Source: Selenomonas bovis DSM 23594 (lineage in GTDB: Bacteria; Bacillota; Negativicutes; Selenomonadales; Selenomonadaceae). Taken from it: 64,000 nucleotides of DNA. The stretch is taken from positions 1-64,000 of the forward strand of contig NZ_KB908382.1 in NCBI RefSeq assembly GCF_000381005.1, written 5' to 3'. The position numbers were made by a program, and so were the translations under genes. The notes under the pieces were generated by a model, which saw nothing but the letters and a program-made list of their open reading frames with translations, made no database searches and was not told where the DNA came from. Shown one piece after another: positions 1 through 12,200 of this stretch; position 1 is the stretch's first letter; each line of letters begins with the position of its first letter.

Positions 1-159
1 CCTGTTTCTTGTACTGTTTTTTATGCCATGATTATCGCCAGTGTCAGATGACCGTGATTGAGGTCAAAGAAAACGGGGCTATCCGCACGAAAATGCTTTC
101 GTGAGACAGCCCCTTTCTTGTTGGGCAGATGCTACGCGAGAGGAACCCGCTCGCTATGA

Positions 160-482
160 TCAAAGGTCTGTGATTTCCTTGAATTTTTTCTTCGACATCC
201 CCGCTGTACCCGCAGCATCTTCCAGGCTCAGGAGTTTAGCCCCCACAAGCGACTTCAGGGTTTCCAAGCGTCCTTTTTCATACCGCATTCTTCGCTTCTG
301 CGCAGTTCCATTCAGCAGGGCACATACGCTGCCTTCATTTCCTTGTTTTCTTTCGCCACCTCCACGGCATCGGCAATGGCTTCCGTGAAGTTCTCGTTCG
401 GCGTTTTGCCCTCGATGCAGCCCCGGAAAGACAGCCTTTTGATGTTTTCCGGTCCTGGCTCGCAGCGGCTTGCGCGGTTTCT
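160..482 (-). pseudogene. C-terminal relic of an Rpn-family (PD-(D/E)XK) nuclease, frameshifted
   Basis: Directly after the hypE stop the minus strand reads CIEGKTPNENFTEAIADAVE, then VAKENKEMKAAYVPC and a stop near 313. One frame over, from about 326, reading resumes with LLNGTAQKRRMRYEKGRLET and ends KKKFKEITDL at a TGA (160-162). A run of the type 'eaV..AKeNkEmk..Y' followed by 'R..YEKGR' is the usual C-terminus of Rpn/transposase_31 nucleases. No N-terminus or catalytic core remains, so this is a truncated and frameshifted remnant. The family call comes from pattern recognition, not a search. It lies at the distal end of the hydrogenase operon. Confidence 0.6.
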
Positions 483-1490
483 TCAGCAGATCCGCGGCAC
501 GAGACTCCCGAGCGGGAGGTCAACGATGCGGATGCCGCCGAGGGCGGTGCGCAGGCCGACCTGGCCGGGCGCCTCCTCGGTGGTCTCGCCGATGATACAC
601 GCGTCTTTGCCGTAGGGGTGCGCGCGCATGGCGGCGAGCGCGGCATCGGCCTCCGCCGCGGGGACGAAGGCGATGCATTTGCCCTCGTTCGCGAGGTCGA
701 GCGGGTCGAAGCCGAGCATGTCGCAGATGCCGCGCACGGCTTCGCGGATGGGCAGGGCGTCCTCGTCGACGAGGACGCCGACCTGCGCGGCTGCGGCGAT
801 CTCATTGAGGACGGCCGCGACGCCGCCGCGCGTGGGATCGCGCAGGACGGCGGTATGGGGCGCGGCGGCAAGGACGGCCTGCGTGAGGCCGGCGAGCGGC
901 GCGCAGTCGCTCGTGAGGCTCTCGGGGATCTCGATCCCGTGCCGCCCCGCGAGGATGGCGGCCGCGTGGTCGCCGATGCAGCCGGAGAGCAGTACCTTCA
1001 TGCCCGGGCGCACGTTCTGCGGGGCGATGTCGATGCCCGCGATGAGCTCGCCGACGCCCGCCGTGTTGATGAAGATGCCGTCGGCCTTGCCGTGCTCGAC
1101 GACCTTCGTGTCGCCCGTGACGATGGCGACGCCCGCAGCGTCCGCCGTCTCACGCATGGTGCGCACGATGCGCGAGAGATCCTCGACGGGGAATCCCTCC
1201 TCGAGGATGAGGCCGCACGAGAGGTAGCGCGGCACGGCGCCCGTCATCGCGAGGTCGTTGACGGTGCCGCAGACGGCGATCTTCCCGATGTTGCCGCCCG
1301 CGAAGAAGAGCGGACGCACGACGTAGGAGTCCGTCGTGAACGCGAGGCGGCCGCTCGTCGCGAGCTTCGCCCCGTCGTGGAGCACGTCGAGCACGGGATT
1401 GTCAAAGGCGGGCAGGATGACGTCGTGCATGAGCGCAGCGCTCATCTTGCCGCCCGCACCGTGCGCGAGGGTGATTTTCTCATTTGCCAT
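483..1490 (-). CDS. hypE: HypE, carbamoyl-dehydratase of [NiFe]-hydrogenase maturation
   Basis: This 335-residue protein dehydrates the thiocarbamate on its C-terminal cysteine to thiocyanate, providing the CN ligand of the hydrogenase iron, in complex with HypD/HypC and with HypF. It begins MANEKITLAHGAGG, shows the AIR-synthase-like ATP-binding region (GDTKVVEHGKADG) and ends in the diagnostic PRIC, so the catalytic terminal Cys is intact. An SD-like GGGGAGG precedes the ATG. The start overlaps the 3' end of hypD by 11 bases, indicating translational coupling. hypF, the partner carbamoyltransferase, is not in this window. Confidence 0.96.
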   Translation of the reverse strand: MANEKITLAHGAGGKMSAALMHDVILPAFDNPVLDVLHDGAKLATSGRLAFTTDSYVVRPLFFAGGNIGKIAVCGTVNDLAMTGAVPRYLSCGLILEEGFPVEDLSRIVRTMRETADAAGVAIVTGDTKVVEHGKADGIFINTAGVGELIAGIDIAPQNVRPGMKVLLSGCIGDHAAAILAGRHGIEIPESLTSDCAPLAGLTQAVLAAAPHTAVLRDPTRGGVAAVLNEIAAAAQVGVLVDEDALPIREAVRGICDMLGFDPLDLANEGKCIAFVPAAEADAALAAMRAHPYGKDACIIGETTEEAPGQVGLRTALGGIRIVDLPLGSLVPRIC

Positions 1491-2583
1491 AGACGAACCT
1501 CCCCTGTCCGTATTTGTACCAGGCCGCGCAGACGCCCTCGACGGAGACCATGCAGGGGCCGACGGCGTGCGTCGGCATGCAGGCCTTGCCGAAAAGAGGG
1601 CACTCCGGCGGCGTGACGATGCCGCGCAGCACCTCGCCGCAGCGGCAGCCGGGACGCGGGCGCGGCTCCGGAACCTCGAGGGGCAGCACGCGCTCGATGT
1701 CGTAGGCGGCGAAAGCGTCGCGCATGCGCAGCCCCGAGCGCGGGATGATGCCGATGCCGCGCCAGCGCGCGTCCACGGGCTCGTAGACGAGGCGCATGAC
1801 GCGCCGGGCCTCGCAGCTCCCCTCGCGGTGCACGACGCTCTCGTACTCGTTCTCGATACGCGCCTCGCCTGCCGCCGCCTGCTGCGTGAGCCGCGTGAGC
1901 GCGCGCAGAATGGCGAGCGGCGAAAAACCCGCGACGACGCCGGGCAGATGGTAGTCCGCCGCAACGAAGGAGAAGATGTCCGTGCCCGTGACGACGGCGA
2001 CGTGGCCCGGCAGCAAAAAGCCGTCGACGCGCACGGCGGGGTCGTCCATGAGCGCGCGCAGCGCGGGCGGCACGAGCTTCTGCGCGGAGAGCAGGAAGAG
2101 ATTCTTCACGCCCGCGCCCTTGGCCGCGAGCACGAGCGCCGCGGCCGTGGGCGCGGTCGTCTCAAAGCCGACCGCGAGGAAGACGACCTTCTTCTCCGGG
2201 TTCTCCCGCGCGATTGCGAGCGCGTCGAGCGGCGAGTAGACGATGCGGATGTCTGCGCCCTCCGCCTCGGCCTCCGCGAGGCTCGAAGCGGAGCCCGGGA
2301 CCTTGAGCATGTCGCCGAACGTCGCGAGGATGACGTCCTCGCGCGCGGCGTAGGCGATGGCCTTGTCCATGTAGTCGTCCGGCGTCACGCAGACGGGACA
2401 GCCGGGGCCGGAGACGAGCGCGACGCCCGCGGGGAGCATCTGGCGCAGTCCCGCGCGGAAGATGGAGACGGTGTGCGTGCCGCAGACCTCCATGAAGCGC
2501 AGCGGCCGCCCCGCCCGCGCGCTCTGGCGCTCGATCTCCGCGAGCAGCTCCTGTGCCGCCGCCCGCTCCTCTGCGCGCGTCAC
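1480..2583 (-). CDS. hypD: HypD, Fe-S scaffold for Fe(CN)2CO assembly
   Basis: HypD (367 residues) holds the iron on which the CN and CO ligands are assembled with HypC and HypE. Family cysteines are visible: CGTHTVSIFRAG near the N-terminus, GPGCPVCVT, and the C-terminal set from CRCGEVLRG through CPLFGKACMP to GPCMVS. The start is taken as GTG at 2581-2583 (VTRAEERAAAQELL), which overlaps the hypC stop in a GTGA arrangement and gives the normal family length. The same frame stays open about 100 codons upstream across hypC, but that part is not HypD-like. Confidence 0.94.
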   Translation of the reverse strand: MTRAEERAAAQELLAEIERQSARAGRPLRFMEVCGTHTVSIFRAGLRQMLPAGVALVSGPGCPVCVTPDDYMDKAIAYAAREDVILATFGDMLKVPGSASSLAEAEAEGADIRIVYSPLDALAIARENPEKKVVFLAVGFETTAPTAAALVLAAKGAGVKNLFLLSAQKLVPPALRALMDDPAVRVDGFLLPGHVAVVTGTDIFSFVAADYHLPGVVAGFSPLAILRALTRLTQQAAAGEARIENEYESVVHREGSCEARRVMRLVYEPVDARWRGIGIIPRSGLRMRDAFAAYDIERVLPLEVPEPRPRPGCRCGEVLRGIVTPPECPLFGKACMPTHAVGPCMVSVEGVCAAWYKYGQGRFVYGK

Positions 2584-2819
2584 GAGAGCGCCTCCACGGT
2601 GCGCGGCGCGCCGTGCATCTCCGCGAGCAGCGCGTTCGTCTCCTCGGCCTCGCGCTCGTCGACGATCTGCATCGCGAAGCCCGCGTGCACGAGCACGTAG
2701 TCGCCGCATTTCGCCTCGGGCAGCAGCATGAGCGAGATGTCTTTCGTCACGCCGCCGAGCTCGACCTTCGCGAGCGCGTCCTTGATTGCTATGATTTTGG
2801 CAGGTACTGCCAGACACAT
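2580..2819 (-). CDS. hypC: HypC, hydrogenase maturation chaperone
   Basis: HypC (79 residues) carries the iron-ligand unit with HypD and delivers it to the hydrogenase large-subunit precursor. The canonical start MCLAVPAKI is present; Cys2, exposed after Met removal, is the essential residue. An upstream in-frame ATG at 2846 would add nine residues and bury Cys2, so 2819 is chosen. It is coupled to hypD through overlapping stop and start codons. Confidence 0.94.
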   Translation of the reverse strand: MCLAVPAKIIAIKDALAKVELGGVTKDISLMLLPEAKCGDYVLVHAGFAMQIVDEREAEETNALLAEMHGAPRTVEALS

Positions 2820-2889
2820 ATCCGATTCCTCCTGATGTATGGTCAAGCGACCGGGAAAGTCCTCCTTTCGCAGGCTTTCCCGGCATTTC

Positions 2890-3453
2890 CTATCCTTCCC
2901 TTTCCCGCGCGGCCGCCTCGGCGACGGCCGTGTAGTCGACGCTGCCGCCGCGCTTCTCCGCGGGCGCGATGCCCCAGGCGGCGAGCTCCGCGAGCGCGCG
3001 CCGCGCCATCTCCGGCACGAGCGCGCGCATCTCTTCGGAGAGCTCGACGCCCGCCTCGACGTCGTAGGGCTGCGCGCCGATGACGACGACCTCGGGAATC
3101 TTCTTCCCCGTCACGGCGAGGAGCGCGAGCACGTCCTGGATGCCGACCTCATGCGCCGAGATCTTGTCCTGGAAATGCTCCATGACCGCGTCGTCCTCGA
3201 AGCGGAAAAGCGTGCCCGGCGCCGCGTGGCCGTTGATGGAGTCGATGACGAGCAGCCGCCGCGTGCCGGTCACGAACTGCGTGAGCTCGATGCCGAGCGT
3301 GCCGCCGTCGACGATCTGCACACTCTCAGGGAAATCGTAGTGCGCCGCGAGATATTCCGCGACGCGCACGCCGAAGCCCTCATCGCGCAAGATGACGTTG
3401 CCGACGCCGAGGACGGTCGTCTCGGCGGCGAAGAGTCCGCTCTCATCTGCCAT
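2890..3453 (-). CDS. hyaD: [NiFe]-hydrogenase maturation endopeptidase
   Basis: HyaD/HybD/HupD-family nickel-dependent protease (187 residues from MADESG; an alternative ATG is three codons earlier). It removes the C-terminal peptide of the large subunit after nickel insertion. Visible signatures are VLGVGNVILRDEGFGVRV at the N-terminus with the metal-binding Glu/Asp of the family, VIDSINGH and HEVGIQDVLAL with the conserved His. It overlaps the 3' end of hypB. Its substrate is presumably the large subunit at 5601-7520. Confidence 0.93.
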   Translation of the reverse strand: MADESGLFAAETTVLGVGNVILRDEGFGVRVAEYLAAHYDFPESVQIVDGGTLGIELTQFVTGTRRLLVIDSINGHAAPGTLFRFEDDAVMEHFQDKISAHEVGIQDVLALLAVTGKKIPEVVVIGAQPYDVEAGVELSEEMRALVPEMARRALAELAAWGIAPAEKRGGSVDYTAVAEAAAREREG

Positions 3454-4126
3454 CGCGCGCACCTCCGCAGGCTGCCTTCTTCGCGGCGACGCCGCGGCGC
3501 AACCAGTCGCACCAGGCGTCTACGCCCTCGCCCGTCGTGCAGGAGAGCTCGGCGATCTCGATGCCCGGATGGAGCATGGAGATGTCGCCGCGCGCGCTCT
3601 TGATATCGAAATTGCAGTAGGGCGCGAGGTCGATCTTGTTGATGAGGGCGATCTCGCTCTCCTTGAACATGAGCGGATATTTCATCGGCTTGTCATCGCC
3701 CTCCGTCACGGAGAGCACGACGGCGCGCGCGTCCTCGCCGAGCGCGAACTCCGCGGGACAGACGAGGTTGCCGACGTTCTCGACGACGAGCAGGTCGAGC
3801 GCTGCGAGGTCCATCTCCCGCACGGTCTTCTGCACCATGTTCGCATCGAGGTGGCAGCCGCCCGCCGTGTTGATCTGTATGACGGGCACGCCGTGGCGGT
3901 CGATGCGCTCCGCGTCCTTGCTCGTGAAAAGGTCGCCCTCGATGACCGCCATCGAGAGCTCGCCCCGCATCCGCTCCATCGTCTTTTCGAGCACGGATGT
4001 CTTGCCCGCGCCCGGCGAGCCCATGAAATTGACGACGAAAACGCCCTTCGCCTGGAACAGCGCGCGGTTCTCCGCCGCGTAGCGGTCGTTCTCGCCGAGG
4101 ATGTTCTTGATGACCTTGATTTCCAA
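3443..4126 (-). CDS. hypB: HypB, GTPase for nickel insertion
   Basis: HypB (227 residues) is a SIMIBI GTPase that with HypA loads nickel into the hydrogenase. The P-loop GSPGAGKTS, the metal-site region NTAGGCHLDANM (Cys and His at the dimer interface), VVENVGNLVCP and the NKID guanine motif are all present. The N-terminus (MEIKVIKNILGEND) lacks the CxxCGC high-affinity nickel motif known from E. coli HypB. A very similar motif opens the small protein encoded two genes upstream. Two bases separate it from hypA. Confidence 0.96.
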   Translation of the reverse strand: MEIKVIKNILGENDRYAAENRALFQAKGVFVVNFMGSPGAGKTSVLEKTMERMRGELSMAVIEGDLFTSKDAERIDRHGVPVIQINTAGGCHLDANMVQKTVREMDLAALDLLVVENVGNLVCPAEFALGEDARAVVLSVTEGDDKPMKYPLMFKESEIALINKIDLAPYCNFDIKSARGDISMLHPGIEIAELSCTTGEGVDAWCDWLRRGVAAKKAACGGARDGR

Positions 4127-4128
4127 GT

Positions 4129-4470
4129 CTAATCAACCTCCAGATATTCTACCTGCATCTCGCGTCCCGAGATGGTCTTGAGCACGCCGTCCTTGCACTC
4201 GGGACACCAGAAATCGTAGTGCTCGATGTGGAACTCCTTGCCGCATTTCGTGCAGCGGCCGATGAGCGGCACGTGGCGAATCTTGAGCGCGGCGCCCTCC
4301 GCGGGCGTGCCCTGCGTGAGGACGCGCCAGGAGAACTCGAGCGACTCCTGCTCGACGCCCGCCATCTCGCCGATGAGGAGCCCGACCTCGCGCACTTTCG
4401 TCGCGTGGTTCGCCTCCGCGTAGTCGCGAACGATGCCGAGGATGCCCTCTGCGATCGACATTTCGTGCAT
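4129..4470 (-). CDS. hypA: HypA, nickel metallochaperone
   Basis: HypA (113 residues) binds nickel at its N-terminus (MHEMS, ligand His2) and zinc in a two-CxxC site, seen here as RCTKCGKEFHIEHYDFWCPECK. It docks HypB and the large subunit. Length and motifs are standard. The gene follows a GC-rich hairpin in the mRNA (about 4490-4530) that separates it from the HMA-like gene. Confidence 0.96.
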   Translation of the reverse strand: MHEMSIAEGILGIVRDYAEANHATKVREVGLLIGEMAGVEQESLEFSWRVLTQGTPAEGAALKIRHVPLIGRCTKCGKEFHIEHYDFWCPECKDGVLKTISGREMQVEYLEVD

Positions 4471-4489
4471 TTCCTGCCTCCCTGTGATG

Positions 4490-4535
4490 TATGGAAAAGA
4501 GGCCGCGCAGCCATTGCGCAGCCTCCGCTTCCATC
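4490..4535 (-). terminator. hairpin between the HMA-like gene and hypA
   Basis: On the minus strand GAGGCTGCGCA can pair with TGCGCGGCCTC, followed by TTTT. It lies inside the operon, so it may attenuate hyp expression or protect the upstream hydrogenase mRNA rather than fully terminate. Pairing was judged by eye. Confidence 0.4.
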
Positions 4536-4539
4536 GCTT

Positions 4540-4782
4540 TTAGAGCGCCGCCTCCAGGCCGCGCGCCGCAAAGACGCTCAGGATATCCGTGAGCTTCGTC
4601 TTTTTCGGACTGTAATCGACGGTCGTCTCGCCGTCGTGCGCGTGGATGTGGACGAACAGCACGCCCGGCAGGCCGAAGAGCGCGCGCTCGACCTCCTTCG
4701 CGCTCTCGTCCGTATAGCCGGTGACTGTGAACTGCAGGCGCGTGTTGCCGTTCGTCTCACCGCAGCCGCATTCCTTACACAT
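4540..4782 (-). CDS. small HMA-like protein with N-terminal CxxCGCG motif
   Basis: An 80-residue protein that begins MCKECGCGETNG and continues with a ferredoxin-like HMA fold (RLQFTVTGYTDESAKEVERAL...GVLFVHIHAHDGETTVDYSP). The usual CxxC metal loop of HMA domains is replaced by GYTDESA, so the only cysteines are in the N-terminal motif. That motif matches the high-affinity nickel site opening E. coli-type HypB, which is missing from HypB here. The start is fixed by a strong SD-like GAGGAGGG. A nickel-delivery role is inferred from motif and context; no experimentally characterised homolog is known to me. Confidence 0.8.
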   Translation of the reverse strand: MCKECGCGETNGNTRLQFTVTGYTDESAKEVERALFGLPGVLFVHIHAHDGETTVDYSPKKTKLTDILSVFAARGLEAAL

Positions 4783-4865
4783 GGAAAGCCCTCCTCTCGT
4801 TTCCTGCACAGACGCCCGCTTTGCAGGCACCGTGCATCATCTTGCAGTCAATGTCTCTCGCGATC

Positions 4866-5585
4866 TCATGGCTTTTCCGCGTCGGGATCGACGTCGCCGG
4901 CATCCGCCGGGTAGTGCACGAGGAACTTGCTGCCCGAGAACATGCTCGAGACCTCGGACTCGCCCTCCATGAACTCCGAGCGGATGACCATGTAGAGATG
5001 GCCGATGGCGAAGAGGATGATGCCCCAGGCGACGTAGTGGTGCACGAGGTGCGTCACCATCTCGTTGCCGCAGACGACGTTCACCCAGGCGAACGCGCGT
5101 GCGACGTAGCTCTCAGGCTCCGTCATGTAGTACATCGCGAAGCCCGTGCAGATCTCGACGGCGACGAGGCCGTAGAGCATAAGGTACGACATGCGCGCGA
5201 GCGGGTTCCTGAGGAACGACTGGTGGTTCGGCTGCACGAGCATGTAGTGCTTGATGACGTCGACCGTCTGCGCGTAGAAATAGCCTTTCCAGAACCGCGG
5301 GAACAGCCGGTCGCCGCGGTTGATGATGAAGCCGTAGATGCGCAGCACGAACGAGGCGCAGAAGACGAACGCCGCGACGAAATGGATGTCGCGCACGAGG
5401 TCGATGTACGTCGTCGAGTACGCCGGCTCGAGGTTCATCGACTGCAACGGCGTCGCGATGATGATGCCCGTGCCGAAGAGCACGAGGATCATCGCGACCA
5501 TGATCCAGTGGAAGATGCGCAGGAAGGGGCTGAAGAGATAGAACTCCTTGCGCCGGACTTCCTTCATCTGATGAATTTCTGCCAT
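4866..5585 (-). CDS. hyaC: Ni/Fe-hydrogenase cytochrome b subunit
   Basis: A 239-residue integral membrane diheme cytochrome b (HyaC/HupC family) that takes electrons from the hydrogenase small subunit to the quinone pool. About four hydrophobic segments are seen (near residues 27-47, 68-88, 135-155, 185-205), with candidate heme ligands in RIFHWIM, DIHFVAA and LVHHYVAWG. It starts 16 bases after the large-subunit stop. This makes the complex a membrane-bound uptake hydrogenase rather than a soluble or energy-converting one. Confidence 0.92.
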   Translation of the reverse strand: MAEIHQMKEVRRKEFYLFSPFLRIFHWIMVAMILVLFGTGIIIATPLQSMNLEPAYSTTYIDLVRDIHFVAAFVFCASFVLRIYGFIINRGDRLFPRFWKGYFYAQTVDVIKHYMLVQPNHQSFLRNPLARMSYLMLYGLVAVEICTGFAMYYMTEPESYVARAFAWVNVVCGNEMVTHLVHHYVAWGIILFAIGHLYMVIRSEFMEGESEVSSMFSGSKFLVHYPADAGDVDPDAEKP

Positions 5586-5600
5586 GAGACAGCTCCTTTC

Positions 5601-7520
5601 TCACTTGCGCGGCTCGACATGCGTGCCGGAGGTGGGATCCGTCGTCACGATGCTGATCTTTTCGCCTTTGGCGTTGAACATGTGCGTCGCGCATGCCATG
5701 CAGGGGTCGAAGGAGCGGATGACCTTGACGATCTCGAGCGGCTTGTCAGGGATGGCGACATGCGTGTCCATCATCGCGCGCTCGTAGGCGCCGTGGCCCG
5801 CCTTGTCGTCGCGCGGGCAGGCGTTCCAGGTCGTCGGCACGACGCACTGGTAGTTATCGACCTTGTCGTCCTTGATCGTGACCCAGTGCGCGAGGCCGCC
5901 GCGCGGCGCCTCGTAGAGGCCGACGCCCTTGCATTTCTGCGGCCAGGTGTCCGGGTTCCAGTGCTCGTTGTTGACGACCTCGGTATCGCCGGACTTGACG
6001 TTCGCGATGAGCTTGTCGAAGAAGAATTTATTGATCTCGGCGTTGAGCTGGCAGTCGAGGCCGCGCGCGGCCGTGCGGCCGACCATCGTCGGCAGCCAGA
6101 CCTCAGGCGCGAGGCCGAGCACCTTCGAGACGGCGTCGATCTGGTCGAGCATCATCTGCTCCGCCCAGGTCGGCGCAGTGAGCAGGCCCTGCTGCGCCTT
6201 CGTGTAGATGATGATGTAGCGCGCGAGCGGGCCGACCTCGCAGAGCTTGCCGCGCCATTTCGGCGTCTTGAGCCAGGAGTATTTGCCCTGCTCGTTGAGC
6301 TCCTTCCACTCGGTCGCCGTGCCGACCTTCGGGCCCGTGTACTGCGCGTTCGTCACGCCAGACCACGGATGGAGATCCGCGTCCTGCTGCTCGTCAGGAT
6401 ACGTGTACCAGGAGTGCTCGACACCCTCGGTGAAGACCGCGGGGTCTGTGATATCCTCCGCTGCAATCTCCGTGAATTTCGCGCTCTTCGCGCCGCCCTT
6501 GAAGTTCTCGACGACGCCGTTGCAGCGCACGAGCAGATTGTTGAAGAAATCGCCGTTCGTCGTACCCTTGTTCGGCTCGAGCGGATAGGAGCCGTAGGCG
6601 AGGACGCGCTCGTCCGCGAGCCCGCCGCCGTCGACGCGGCCCGCCTTGACGTAGGCCGTGCCGATGGCGAGCAGATCCGGCAGATAGTAGTTGTTGACGA
6701 GCGTGCGGCCCATGTTGATCGCGCGGTCGACGATGGAGAGACGCGCCGCGTTCACGGGCGCGTTGCCGTCCGTCATGGAGATGGAGCACGGCATGCCGCC
6801 GACGACATAGTGCGGATGCGGGTTCTTGCCGCCGAAGATGACGTGCGGCGTCACGAGCTCACGCTGCTTGTCGAGCATCTCGAGGTAGTGCGCGACCGCC
6901 ATGAGATGCACCTCAGGCGGCAGCAGCTTGTAGTCGGGATGATCCCACCAGTTCGCGGCGAAGATGCCGAGCTGGCCGCTCTCGACGATGGCCTTGACCT
7001 TGCCCTGGATCTCGGCGAAATACTGCGGCGTCGCCGCGGGGAAGTCGTGCTCGTAGGCCTCTGTCACGCTCGCGTTCGGCGTGCGGAACGGGAGCTTGTA
7101 GGTATTGAGCACCGTGTTCTGGAGGTTCGCCGTCGCGATGGTATCCGCGGCGAGCGCCTCGACGGGGCTCACCCAGTCGAGCGCGTGAAGGTGATAGAAA
7201 TGGACGAGATGATCCTGCACCGTCAGCGTCGCCGCCATGATGTTGCGAATATAGTTCGCGTTCTTCGGGATGCGGATCTGCAGCGCGTCCTCCACGGCGC
7301 GCACCGAGGCGAGCGCGTGCGCCGTCGTGCAGACGCCGCAGATGCGCTGGATGTACGCCCAGGCATCGCGCGGATCGCGGTTGTGCATGACGAGCTCGAG
7401 GCCGCGCCAGGCCGTGCCGGAGGAGACGGCGTCCGTGACCTTGCCGCTCTCGTCCACCGTGACCTCTGCGCGCAGATGGCCTTCGATTCTCGTGATCGGA
7501 TCTACTACTACATGTTTCAT
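5601..7520 (-). CDS. hyaB: [NiFe]-hydrogenase large subunit (group 1, membrane-bound uptake type)
   Basis: A catalytic subunit of 639 residues that oxidises H2 at the Ni-Fe(CN)2CO site. The N-terminal L1 motif RICGVC and the C-terminal L2 motif DPCMACATH supply the four nickel cysteines. The 26 residues after the L2 His (MFNAKGEKIS...) should be the peptide removed by the maturation protease, longer than the roughly 15 residues typical of the family. It lies 19 bases after the small subunit, and the full Hyp set follows. Subgroup placement is inferred from the subunit set, not from a tree. Confidence 0.95.
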   Translation of the reverse strand: MKHVVVDPITRIEGHLRAEVTVDESGKVTDAVSSGTAWRGLELVMHNRDPRDAWAYIQRICGVCTTAHALASVRAVEDALQIRIPKNANYIRNIMAATLTVQDHLVHFYHLHALDWVSPVEALAADTIATANLQNTVLNTYKLPFRTPNASVTEAYEHDFPAATPQYFAEIQGKVKAIVESGQLGIFAANWWDHPDYKLLPPEVHLMAVAHYLEMLDKQRELVTPHVIFGGKNPHPHYVVGGMPCSISMTDGNAPVNAARLSIVDRAINMGRTLVNNYYLPDLLAIGTAYVKAGRVDGGGLADERVLAYGSYPLEPNKGTTNGDFFNNLLVRCNGVVENFKGGAKSAKFTEIAAEDITDPAVFTEGVEHSWYTYPDEQQDADLHPWSGVTNAQYTGPKVGTATEWKELNEQGKYSWLKTPKWRGKLCEVGPLARYIIIYTKAQQGLLTAPTWAEQMMLDQIDAVSKVLGLAPEVWLPTMVGRTAARGLDCQLNAEINKFFFDKLIANVKSGDTEVVNNEHWNPDTWPQKCKGVGLYEAPRGGLAHWVTIKDDKVDNYQCVVPTTWNACPRDDKAGHGAYERAMMDTHVAIPDKPLEIVKVIRSFDPCMACATHMFNAKGEKISIVTTDPTSGTHVEPRK

Positions 7521-7539
7521 TTATCTTCCACCTGCTCCC

Positions 7540-8640
7540 TTATGCCTTGTCCTGCTCATCCTTCGCGCGCTGCGCCGCCTCGGCCTGATCGCGCTTGTGC
7601 TTCTGCATGATCGAGCCTGCCGCGTGCGCCGCGACGCCTGCCGTCGCGAGCGCGCCGACCGCGAGGCCGATCTTGTCCGCGTTGCCGAGCTTGCCGTAGC
7701 CGGGCAGGCGCTTCGTAAACGGCTCATCGTCCCAGAAATTCGCGTTGCTGCAGCCGATGCAGGGCGCGCCCGACTGGATCGGGTAGCTCATGCCCTGGAA
7801 CCAGCGCATATTGCCGCAGGAGTTGTACGTCTCCGGGCCGCGGCAGCCGAGCTTGTAGAGGCACCAGCCAGCCTTTGCACCCGCGTCGTCGAAGTTCTCC
7901 GCGAACATGCCAGCGTCGAAGAACGGGCGGCGGTAGCAGGTATCGTGGATGCGGTTGCCGTAGAACTGCTTCGGACGGCCCTCGCCGTCGAGCGGCGGCA
8001 GCGTGCCGAAGAGCGCGAGATGCATGATGACGCCCGTCATGACCTCGGGGATCGGCGGGCAGCCCGGCACATTCACGACCGGCGTGTTGCCGACGAACGG
8101 GTTGATGCCCGCCGAGCCCGTCGGGTTCGGCTTCGCGCTCTGGATGCCGCCCGAGACCGCGCAGGTGCCGTAGGCGATGATGGCCATCGCGCCCGCCGCG
8201 GCCTCCTGCAGCGTGCGCACGAACGGACGGCCGCCCGACATGCAGTAGACGCCGTTGTCACCCGTGCAGACAGCGCCCTCGACCGCGAGGATATACTGCC
8301 CCTTGTACTTCTTCATGATTTCCTCGAGATGCTGCTCGAACGGCTCGCCGGACGCGGCGCTGAGCAGATGGTCGTACTCAAGATCAATCTGCGACAGCAC
8401 GACATCGCTCGCGAGCGGCGCACCCGAGCGGATGAACGACTCATCGCAGCCCGTGCACTCGTGGCCGTGAATCCAGACGACCACCGGCAGCGGCTTCGTC
8501 TCCGCCGCCTCGACGACCTCCGACAGCTTGTCCGTCGAAAGCCCCATGAGCGTCGTGAGCGCCACGCAGCCCTTGAGGAAGCTACGCCGGCTCATGCCCT
8601 TTCTCAGATAGCGCTCCCACATACTCTCCCGTTTTTCCAC
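7540..8640 (-). CDS. hyaA: [NiFe]-hydrogenase small subunit, Tat-exported
   Basis: A 366-residue iron-sulfur subunit carrying electrons from the NiFe site to cytochrome b. A twin-arginine signal (MSRRSFLKG) is followed by a hydrophobic stretch, then GHECTGCDESF (proximal cluster) and distal/medial cluster cysteines (DTCYRRP, GWCLYKLGC, YNSCGN, PCIGCSNANFWD). A hydrophobic C-terminal helix (IGLAVGALATAGVAAHAAG) anchors it on the outer face of the membrane. The start is taken as GTG at 8638-8640, six bases after SD GGAGGT; the frame is open further upstream without an SD. Confidence 0.92.
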   Translation of the reverse strand: MEKRESMWERYLRKGMSRRSFLKGCVALTTLMGLSTDKLSEVVEAAETKPLPVVVWIHGHECTGCDESFIRSGAPLASDVVLSQIDLEYDHLLSAASGEPFEQHLEEIMKKYKGQYILAVEGAVCTGDNGVYCMSGGRPFVRTLQEAAAGAMAIIAYGTCAVSGGIQSAKPNPTGSAGINPFVGNTPVVNVPGCPPIPEVMTGVIMHLALFGTLPPLDGEGRPKQFYGNRIHDTCYRRPFFDAGMFAENFDDAGAKAGWCLYKLGCRGPETYNSCGNMRWFQGMSYPIQSGAPCIGCSNANFWDDEPFTKRLPGYGKLGNADKIGLAVGALATAGVAAHAAGSIMQKHKRDQAEAAQRAKDEQDKA

Positions 8641-8965
8641 GTTGTTACCTCCCCTTCTGTGCGCCGCCTTCCGGCGCACAAAGAATTCCCCTCTTACCGA
8701 AATCCTTTGATACTAAATCTATTATACGCTGTTGCGGCGATAAATTCCATTATCTTACATATATAGATAGATAAATTTCATTAATGAGCACGACGTCTTT
8801 CCTCCTCTTGTCCCGCGATTTCCTTCCACGCCCCCTGCGCAGTGCACAAAATCTCCGCCCTCCTCCCCGTCGCGCTGCCCAAAGAACGCCCGCCGCCAAA
8901 AGGGAACAGTTCCATGTGGCTGTGGTGCCGCTGGAATTTTTTGCTGGAATTTTTTCAAAAAGGGC
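8641..8965. other. hydrogenase operon leader and intergenic region
   Basis: The minus-strand leader holds a GC-rich hairpin (8659-8681, TGTGCGCC/GGCGCACA) just upstream of the SD, and a TATAAT -10 candidate at 8721-8726 without a good -35. The stretch around 8755-8790 is AT-rich (TATATAGATAGATAAATTT). No FNR-like palindrome was recognised. The rest up to the tRNA promoter shows no credible gene. Confidence 0.45.
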
Positions 8966-8994
8966 TTGCATCTTTTCTGCAATCGCGTTATACT
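8966..8994 (+). promoter_or_regulatory. sigma-A promoter of tRNA-Ala
   Basis: TTGCAT and TATACT are separated by exactly 17 bases, 13 bases upstream of the tRNA 5' end. Confidence 0.75.
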
Positions 8995-9007
8995 ATTGAT
9001 TGTTCAC

Positions 9008-9083
9008 GGGGACGTAGCTCAGTTGGGAGAGCGTTCGGTTCGCATCCGAGAGGTCGAGGGTTCAAGCCCCTTCGTCTCCACCA
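9008..9083 (+). tRNA. tRNA-Ala (anticodon CGC)
   Basis: A full cloverleaf can be drawn: acceptor GGGGACG/CGTCTCC, D arm GCTC/GAGC, anticodon stem TTCGG/CCGAG with loop TTCGCAT (CGC, reading GCG), T arm with TTCAAGC, and an encoded CCA. It stands alone with its own promoter and terminator. Confidence 0.93.
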
Positions 9084-9091
9084 TGAATATC

Positions 9092-9119
9092 AAGCCAGGC
9101 CGCAGGGCCTGGCTTTTTT
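9092..9119 (+). terminator. terminator of tRNA-Ala
   Basis: AAGCCAGGCC pairs with GGGCCTGGCTT around a short loop, followed by a T tract. Confidence 0.85.
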
Positions 9120-9188
9120 GGTGCAGTGATATCACACCCCGCCGCGTTTTACGCCGCAGACACACCGCGCCCCTCCGCAAAAAAAGAG

Positions 9189-9214
9189 CCCGTTTCCTCA
9201 GCTGAGGAAACGGG
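9189..9214 (-). terminator. terminator of the GH4 gene
   Basis: A perfect palindrome (CCCGTTTCCTCAG/CTGAGGAAACGGG), with a T-rich tract following on the minus strand and TTTT on the plus strand, so possibly bidirectional. Confidence 0.8.
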
Positions 9215-9262
9215 TTTTGAGTTTGGGGGTTCTATATGAAGTGAAAATTGAAAGAGGCGAGA

Positions 9263-10738
<1,476 letters not shown>

Positions 10739-10880
10739 TCACTTTGCCCGCACGGCGGCACAAAGTACATTTTATGAAATTCAGTTCACAAGAGAAGCTA
10801 AACCTCACACAATCAATCAAAATCTCACATCAAACATCTCAATGCCGGGCAGCGTGCGACGCGCAGCGCGCGGCCGCCTC

Positions 10881-11582
10881 TCAGCGGCGGCGCCAGAGGT
10901 CAAAGAGCGCGACCATGTTCTTGCAGCGCAGGCATTCCATCGCCGTCATCATGCGGTCGTCGTCCGAACCGCCGGGAATAGGCACCGAGATATGCGCGCC
11001 GCCGTAGCTCTCGCCGATGGTGCGCAGCGCCTGCAGCGTGCGGGCGTTCACAGGCTGGTCGAACTGCTCGACGATGCCGCCCTCGCGGGGCTCCGTCGCG
11101 ACGGACTCCTCCGCGCGGATCTGGAACACCGTCGAGGAGCCCGTCTGCACATCGACGCCGACGAAGCCGATGGACTGTTGCCCGAGATGGCGCACGGAGA
11201 GGTAGAGGATGGCCTGGTCGCCCTTCTTGACGAGGTAGGGCACGATGTAGATGCCGTCCTGCGTCGGCGGATCGTAGCTGTAGAGCGTGCGGCCGTTGCC
11301 GATGTCCTTCACGCGCATATCCGCCGTGAGCCCCTCGGCCGTGCCATCCTTGCCCTGCGCCGCCGTCGCGTCCGCGCTCTGCGCGGGCTTCGCCTTTTTC
11401 TCGCGCTGGACGCGCGCCTCCTGGGCCTCCTGCCGCGCCGCCTGCTTCGCCGCCTGCCGCTGCTGCACGATGGCGAGCGTCGCCTGATAATGGCGCGCGG
11501 CAAAATGCCCCGCCGCCCCCGCCGTCCCGAGGACGACGGCGGCGAGCAGGCCGTATTTCAGGATGGATAGCTTCTTGCCCAT
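10881..11582 (-). CDS. membrane-anchored protein of unknown function
   Basis: A 233-residue protein with one N-terminal membrane segment (about residues 8-26, LKYGLLAAVVLGTAGAAG). A Gln/Ala/Arg/Lys-rich, probably coiled or extended linker follows (35-75: QQRQAAKQAARQEAQ...), then a folded C-terminal half from about residue 90 (GRTLYSYDPPTQDGIYIVPYLVKKGDQ...). The C-terminus carries ECLRCKNM. The topology suggests an extracytoplasmic domain. No family was recognised. It is a single gene between terminators. Confidence 0.75.
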   Translation of the reverse strand: MGKKLSILKYGLLAAVVLGTAGAAGHFAARHYQATLAIVQQRQAAKQAARQEAQEARVQREKKAKPAQSADATAAQGKDGTAEGLTADMRVKDIGNGRTLYSYDPPTQDGIYIVPYLVKKGDQAILYLSVRHLGQQSIGFVGVDVQTGSSTVFQIRAEESVATEPREGGIVEQFDQPVNARTLQALRTIGESYGGAHISVPIPGGSDDDRMMTAMECLRCKNMVALFDLWRRR

Positions 11583-11837
11583 GCCGCGCTCCTTTCCGCA
11601 GCCCGGTCGTTGCCGGCGCGTTTTCGTATCTCTCTGTTTATTATACGCGATGCCGCGGGCATTTTCCTTGTTTCCGTGAAATTTTCTGTTCCTTGCACCA
11701 GGATACGGAACAAGAATCCTGCCGGAAGGCGGTCAAAAAAGCTGAAATCTATGATATAATGAATATGATTTCATCCGATAAATGAAAGCTTGCAGGCGGC
11801 GTGCGCGCAGCCTGATGGAAAGGAGTCATACGACAAT

Positions 11838-12200
11838 ATGGAAACGAAATACGATGTCACGATCACGGCCATCGGCGGCCTCGCCCGCACGTTCCTCGAG
11901 AACAACAAGAGCGTCATCCTGCTCGACGAGGGCATCCGCCCGAACCTCTCCGATATGGTGGTCGAGCACTCCGGCGGCCTGCTCGCAGGCGAGATCAAGA
12001 AGGGCGACAAGCTCCGCGTCGGATCCTCGGAGTACACGGTCATGAGCGTCGGCAGCGATGTCAACAACAATATCAAGGAGGAGGGCCACTGCACCCTCGT
12101 CTTCAACGCCGAGGGCTCGATGCCCGGACAGGTCATCCTCAAGGGCAAAGGCCAGCCGGTGCTCGCAAACGGCATCCATATCACGTTCTACAAGAAATAA
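11838..12200 (+). CDS. PTS glucitol/sorbitol-type IIA component (SrlB/GutA family), orphan
   Basis: A 120-residue protein matching the IIA-Gut fold: METKYDVTITAIGGLAR, then VVEHSGGLLAGEIKKGD, with a His at the place of the phosphorylated His of E. coli SrlB, and the family pattern YTVMSVGSDVNNNIKEEGHCTL. It would accept phosphate from HPr and pass it to a IIBC for glucitol. No srlA/E permease or dehydrogenase is nearby, so partner and substrate are unknown, and a regulatory role is possible. SD AAAGGAG precedes the ATG; an upstream in-frame ATG (11790) lacks one. Confidence 0.82.
   Translation: METKYDVTITAIGGLARTFLENNKSVILLDEGIRPNLSDMVVEHSGGLLAGEIKKGDKLRVGSSEYTVMSVGSDVNNNIKEEGHCTLVFNAEGSMPGQVILKGKGQPVLANGIHITFYKK

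Follow-up and report, generated by a model that had tools for sequence, protein, structure and literature searches.

The [NiFe]-hydrogenase operon of Selenomonas bovis DSM 23594 encodes an 80-residue protein that is a real and conserved, and apparently undescribed, component of such operons. We read it as a CopZ-like chaperone, recruited for the maturation of [NiFe] hydrogenases, and as the probable nickel donor to HypA/HypB. This reading has a probability of about one half; in it, we infer which metal is bound, which way it is transferred and to which partner. That the protein supplies some metal to the hydrogenase is probable. The observations behind the reading are sequence features, predicted fold, conservation, operon placement, and co-occurrence with HypB and [NiFe] hydrogenases. 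The question concerned is the supply of nickel where HypB has only the weak site of its G-domain. With a separate protein of 80 residues that carries an E. coli-type site, the nickel route to HypB/HypA becomes testable in trans. Selenomonadaceae are common H2-active bacteria of the gut and rumen. Among open-licence PMC papers, neither an HMA-fold nickel metallochaperone of the hydrogenase pathway nor an HMA-like protein in hyp operons was found.

The hydrogenase operon and its small protein

The window, the whole stretch of DNA that was analysed, comprises 64,000 nucleotides of contig NZ_KB908382.1. The operon lies on its minus strand in the order small subunit, large subunit, cytochrome b, small protein, HypA, HypB, protease, HypC, HypD, and HypE (Table 1). 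The name of the last gene is the one we take it to have, and HypE matches were left out of the locus readings. The interval between the protease and HypC (2820-2890) is too short for HypF. It measures ~2.2-2.4 kb in several relatives (e.g. L034, L036, and L042), which corresponds to the size of HypF. The sole Rfam match in positions 1-12000 of the window is a tRNA gene (9008-9080, plus strand) situated upstream of this operon; no nickel riboswitch was found there at threshold.

Table 1. Features of the hydrogenase operon, with positions in the window.
Feature	Position	Strand	Match or remark
[NiFe]-hydrogenase small subunit	7540..8679	-	PF14720 + PF01058; start codon unsettled
[NiFe]-hydrogenase large subunit	5601..7520	-	PF00374, E 1.5e-180
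Cytochrome b subunit of the hydrogenase, next gene upstream of the small protein	4866..5585	-	PF01292
Small protein, 80 aa: MCKECGCG tail, HMA-like domain without CxxC loop, VHIHAH on strand 2	4540..4782	-	
MCKECGC coding stretch (Cys2, Cys5, Cys7)	4762..4782	-	positions of the E. coli HypB nickel site
VHIHAH coding stretch, residues 44-49	4636..4653	-	part of the small protein gene
HypA, MHE start, two CxxC pairs	4129..4470	-	PF01155, 119.8 bits; TIGR00100 above cut-off
HypB without N-terminal metal region; TTG start; G-domain CHxnC	3443..4126	-	TIGR00073, 271 bits
Hydrogenase maturation protease, HycI family	2890..3462	-	PF01750
HypC	2580..2819	-	PF01455
HypD	1480..2580	-	PF01924; start codon unsettled
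HypE (presumed name), AIR synthase-like domains	483..1490	-	PF00586 + PF02769

The small protein reads MCKECGCGETNG... and, as a preliminary description made from the DNA letters had stated, it starts with MCKECGCG and is encoded two genes upstream of HypB. An AGGAGG sequence is located 7 nt 5′ of the ATG, which makes the M1-C2 start very likely, and a Shine-Dalgarno sequence precedes the ATG in 49 of the 55 loop-less relatives. The VHxH strand is present in 52 of these 55 aligned rows. Within the 52 VHxH-type rows, M1, C2, and C5 are conserved throughout (52/52) and G6 and C7 in all except one (51/52). His49, which was not a selection criterion, is found in 47/52, while the conservation of His45 and His47 is circular, as the rows were chosen by VHxH. 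The MCKECGC DNA pattern has a single exact match in its own genome among the matches listed, and a plasmid search gave 0 matches.

Variants of the protein deviate in both regions. The three loop-less relatives that are devoid of the VHxH strand (L183, L184, and L186 from G228, G225, and G219) read MCKDCGCPAHGSSQVKFF and ISIN where VHIH is expected. In two others (L033:3499-3765 and L049, from G009 and G038), a His-rich tail similar to the His-rich N-termini of HypBs follows the motif (MCATCGCGNHDHHHDHD).

Predicted fold and sister HMA proteins

Family models touch the small protein below their thresholds: Pfam HMA matches with E 7e-4 and 20.4 bits against a gathering score of 24.8, and the NCBIfam CopZ models stay under their cut-off. 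The AlphaFold2 model, built with 66 aligned relatives as input, reaches a mean pLDDT of 87.9 and a pTM of 0.74 and is confident except at residues 1-4. It takes on a beta-alpha-beta-beta-alpha-beta arrangement (strands 14-21, 41-46, 52-57, and 77-79; helices 25-36 and 64-72) that superposes on CopZ (2qif_A) with a Z of 13.0 and an rmsd of 1.3 over 68 residues. Among solved structures, the model is closest to copper chaperones and copper-ATPase domains, and the VIA/Foldseek match lists would also accommodate other folds. A profile from the hydrogenase-type form alone (15 rows) arrives at the same structure group with weaker matches. At the position of the GMxCxxC loop of its relatives, the protein reads GYTDES and is free of cysteines. 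The HMA fold without a CxxC loop, proposed earlier from the letters alone, is borne out as a predicted fold. Being two positions apart on one strand (i and i+2), His45 and His47 should point to the same face of it. The protein is CopZ-like by fold, lacks the CxxC that characterizes CopZ, and is HypB-like in its tail only. An assignment as SlyD (FKBP-type) was rejected, as the model is HMA-like and no FKBP match is among those listed for Pfam and NCBIfam.

The MCxxCGC start is shared by sister HMA proteins in which the GMxCxxC loop is intact, and these sisters carry acidic residues at the His45/His47 positions of the hydrogenase form. Such CopZ-like proteins, with GMxCxxC plus an N-terminal MCxxCGC, occur in several families (L195-L209), and no curated family was found for this make-up. 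In the ~5 kb read around the sisters, none of the searched hydrogenase/hyp genes was found, and the tail is therefore not necessarily a sign of nickel. M-C-N-C-C-G-C starts, which differ from that of the small protein, recur in a further family of the class (G182, G222, G240, G243, and G267).

The alignment holds 66 of 73 representatives; the window copy stands in for L001, while L141, L144, L194:5421-5750, L200, L202, L204, and L207 were left out. In the resulting tree (66 rows, 80 columns), a branch (100/99) keeps the CxxC-bearing rows together on one side, and the VHxH rows need 2 changes on a topology with many open forks, which is compatible with one origin of VHxH as well as with more than one.

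Distribution and gene neighbourhood

Homologs of the small protein are present in 126 of the 151 genomes of the family Selenomonadaceae and in 29 of its 30 genera, which makes it more than a chance reading frame. HypB is above cut-off in 126/151 genomes as well. Both occur together in 122 genomes, the small protein occurs alone in 4 (G001, G045, G051, and G092) and HypB alone in 4 (G105, G116, G119, and G130), and 21 have neither. These counts favor a nickel donor, as does the [NiFe] large subunit that is present in 4/4 of the small-protein-only genomes, three of which are merely 79-85% complete. The large subunit is absent from 4/4 tested genomes with neither gene (G004, G021, G047, and G063). 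[FeFe] hydrogenase group A is found in 16/16 tested genomes of the latter kind and is absent from 2/9 tested carriers of the small protein (G012 and G040), and hence the link of the small protein is to [NiFe]/Hyp.

The co-absence stems mostly from one genus, g22, which accounts for 16 of the 21 genomes with neither gene and therefore points to few independent losses. Outside g22, a co-loss is seen in G004 (99% complete): G033 of the same genus still has the two genes. The clearest exception, which together with the weight of g22 speaks against a nickel donor, is G119 (100% complete): it has a hydrogenase and HypB, and its small gene is only a remnant. This remnant, MCKECGCGHRERTIHIHS... (L210, 5272-5709), continues in the reading frame of HypA, whose own Shine-Dalgarno sequence and MHE start are retained.

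Across the class, the small-protein family is matched in 120/250 genomes and HypB in 156/250; the weaker matches, read in part, are mostly CxxC-bearing proteins among those read. Outside the family, the VHxH form as read is present in 13/99 HypB-positive genomes and in 1/89 without HypB (G215). Most of the motif-free HypBs outside the family thus seem to do their work in its absence, which speaks against a nickel donor. In the phylum sample, matches at E <= 1e-5 occur in 27/249 genomes and are strong only in the seven genomes of the same family.

Neighbors were counted for 128 distinct sequences, CxxC-bearing ones included; some of the loci have short flanks of 1.5 to 4 kb, and for these "no neighbor" means none inside the flanks. 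The arrangement cytochrome b, small protein, HypA is found in 54/128 and occurs outside the family as well (G151, G154, G161, and G189). Cytochrome b lies upstream in 61/128 and HypA downstream in 55/128, while 58/128 have a searched gene on neither side. The small protein is also found outside the operon: G076 has the order SSU-LSU-cytb-HypA-HypB with the small protein encoded elsewhere in the genome, and in G012, G006, and G150 it lies apart from hypB. All four genomes have hyp genes elsewhere, and the retention of the small gene in them argues for the nickel donor. One relative (L178) is placed tail-to-tail (convergent) with the nickel-cofactor gene larC (TIGR00299, NF052512), which points in the same direction.

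Genome G215 has no HypB at E <= 1e-40, yet [NiFe] large subunits are present. Here, a loop-less VHIH relative (L180, region 5383-8894) is located right behind an apparent [FeFe]-hydrogenase operon that contains an SDR gene, TIGR02512, a C-terminal piece, and a cytochrome b-like gene. Another relative (L181) lies near the arsenite methyltransferase gene arsM. Both placements count against nickel donation.

The slightly steadier neighborhood of cytochrome b compared to HypA also weighs against a nickel donor and suits a protein that serves the membrane-bound hydrogenase itself (its cytochrome b, its assembly or its export) rather than the delivery of nickel. Such a service would fit the loci L038 (G040) and L134, which retain the cytochrome b neighbor without HypA downstream, and the [FeFe] operon of G215 with its cytochrome b. 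The gene is, however, found away from the structural genes in L039, L041, L043, L044, L046, and L048. Moreover, the SSU-LSU-cytb operons of G203, G191, and G199 (L234, L236, and L242) continue directly with the protease and have no small protein. As the HMA fold and the cysteine tail point to metal handling, we consider a cytochrome b service unlikely.

A metal other than nickel is a further alternative, in which the protein would bind a soft metal such as Cu(I) or Zn(II) and guard the hydrogenase, or the proteins that mature it, against mismetallation. The copper proteins among the nearest structures, the copper-type CxxC loop retained by sisters with the same tail, and the G215 relative near arsM are consistent with it. 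The hydrogenase-linked form has no such loop, however, and its presence within the family tracks [NiFe]/Hyp, which leaves this guarding role doubtful.

HypB, the nickel route, and comparison with known systems

The window HypB starts at a TTG that is separated from the upstream stop by two sense codons, so that an N-terminal CxxCGC is not possible; its absence had been noted correctly in the preliminary description. The G-domain CHxnC, described in PMC3262836 as the invariant HypB site, is present (C91-H92...C123, numbering of P0002). With a GTPase, CHxnC, and no N-terminal metal region, this HypB corresponds to type 1, the form described in PMC10134865 as devoid of the N-terminal region.

A CxxC that lies upstream of the start or among residues 1-20 is found in 0 of 146 HypB frames (79 distinct N-terminal cores) from the fetched loci, a few of them broken or cut by contig ends, whether the small protein is present or not. 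None of 17 further HypB ORFs, some incomplete or not true HypB, has a CxxCGC start. The M-C-x-x-C-G-C DNA pattern occurs in at least 122/250 genomes of the class and 30/249 of the phylum sample, with far fewer matches for a backward control pattern in the class among the matches listed. Judged by eye among the matches listed for class and phylum sample, no ATG-MCxxCGC site lies inside HypB. The anti-correlation between a HypB motif and the small protein that had been proposed as a check therefore has nothing to act on, HypB being motif-free throughout.

It is very improbable that HypB was split and its nickel motif moved onto the small carrier, as had been suggested: the identical MCxxCGC at the equal N-terminal position and the contact of the E. 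coli-type prefix model NF053667 with residues 1-49 (E 0.16) are set against a score of 13.3 bits versus a cut-off of 30, 0/150 class genomes with that prefix (E. coli control positive), the 0/146 HypB frames, and sisters that bear the motif away from hyp genes. Homology of the tail to the HypB prefix was rejected on the same score and the same 0/150. The small protein looks like something added to the system within part of the class, and not like a fragment of HypB. The free-standing nickel carrier of the preliminary description survives as a working idea, owing to the conserved Cys2/Cys5/Cys7, the cytb-hypA placement, and the co-occurrence with HypB and [NiFe], and is stripped of its split origin.

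In the recruited nickel chaperone that we favor, a soluble HMA/CopZ-like metallochaperone would have entered [NiFe]-hydrogenase maturation in Negativicutes. It would have lost the HMA metal loop, kept the Cys2-Cys5-Cys7 tail (or had it in common with its sisters), and gained the VHIHxH strand. The tail would hold Ni(II) by three thiolates and the N-terminal amine, possibly with the help of the histidines, and the nickel would be passed to HypB and HypA, which lack a site of this type, the window-type HypB having its G-domain site only. The specific form of a dedicated HMA-fold nickel donor, in which Cys2/Cys5/Cys7 act in trans to HypB and VHIHxH serves as an additional site or as a path for the transfer, is put forward tentatively and at somewhat less than even odds.

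Among known systems, E. coli HypB is matched by the tail. Its nickel ligands are Cys2, Cys5, Cys7, and the N-terminal amine according to a review (PMC7055735), which regards CXXCGC as a peculiarity of E. coli HypB and its role as still to be elucidated. The small protein has the same three cysteines at the same positions behind Met1 and is likewise hyp-linked, and this match together with the metallochaperone fold supports the nickel donor. In contrast to E. coli HypB, it is a separate HMA-fold protein without a GTPase and remains under the NF053667 cut-off. It shares predicted fold and size with HMA chaperones of the CopZ/Atx1 type (PF00403) and differs from them by the missing CxxC loop, the N-terminal cysteine tail, the VHIHxH strand, and the [NiFe] linkage. 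The MCxxCGC-CopZ-like proteins (Veillonella-type and other Negativicutes) are equal to it in N-terminal tail and domain length; unlike it, they keep GMxCxxC and have acidic residues at the His45/His47 positions.

SlyD is proposed to act as a nickel reservoir that supplies HypB in E. coli, according to the same review (PMC7055735), and would resemble the small protein in its proposed job as a separate nickel giver. SlyD, however, belongs to the FKBP-type isomerases, which is another fold, and carries its metal tail at the other end, the C-terminus. The N-terminal extension of CzcP (4u9r) is an HMA-like metal domain as well (Z 9.6; profile E 5e-4) and, unlike the small protein, is part of a cation-efflux ATPase.
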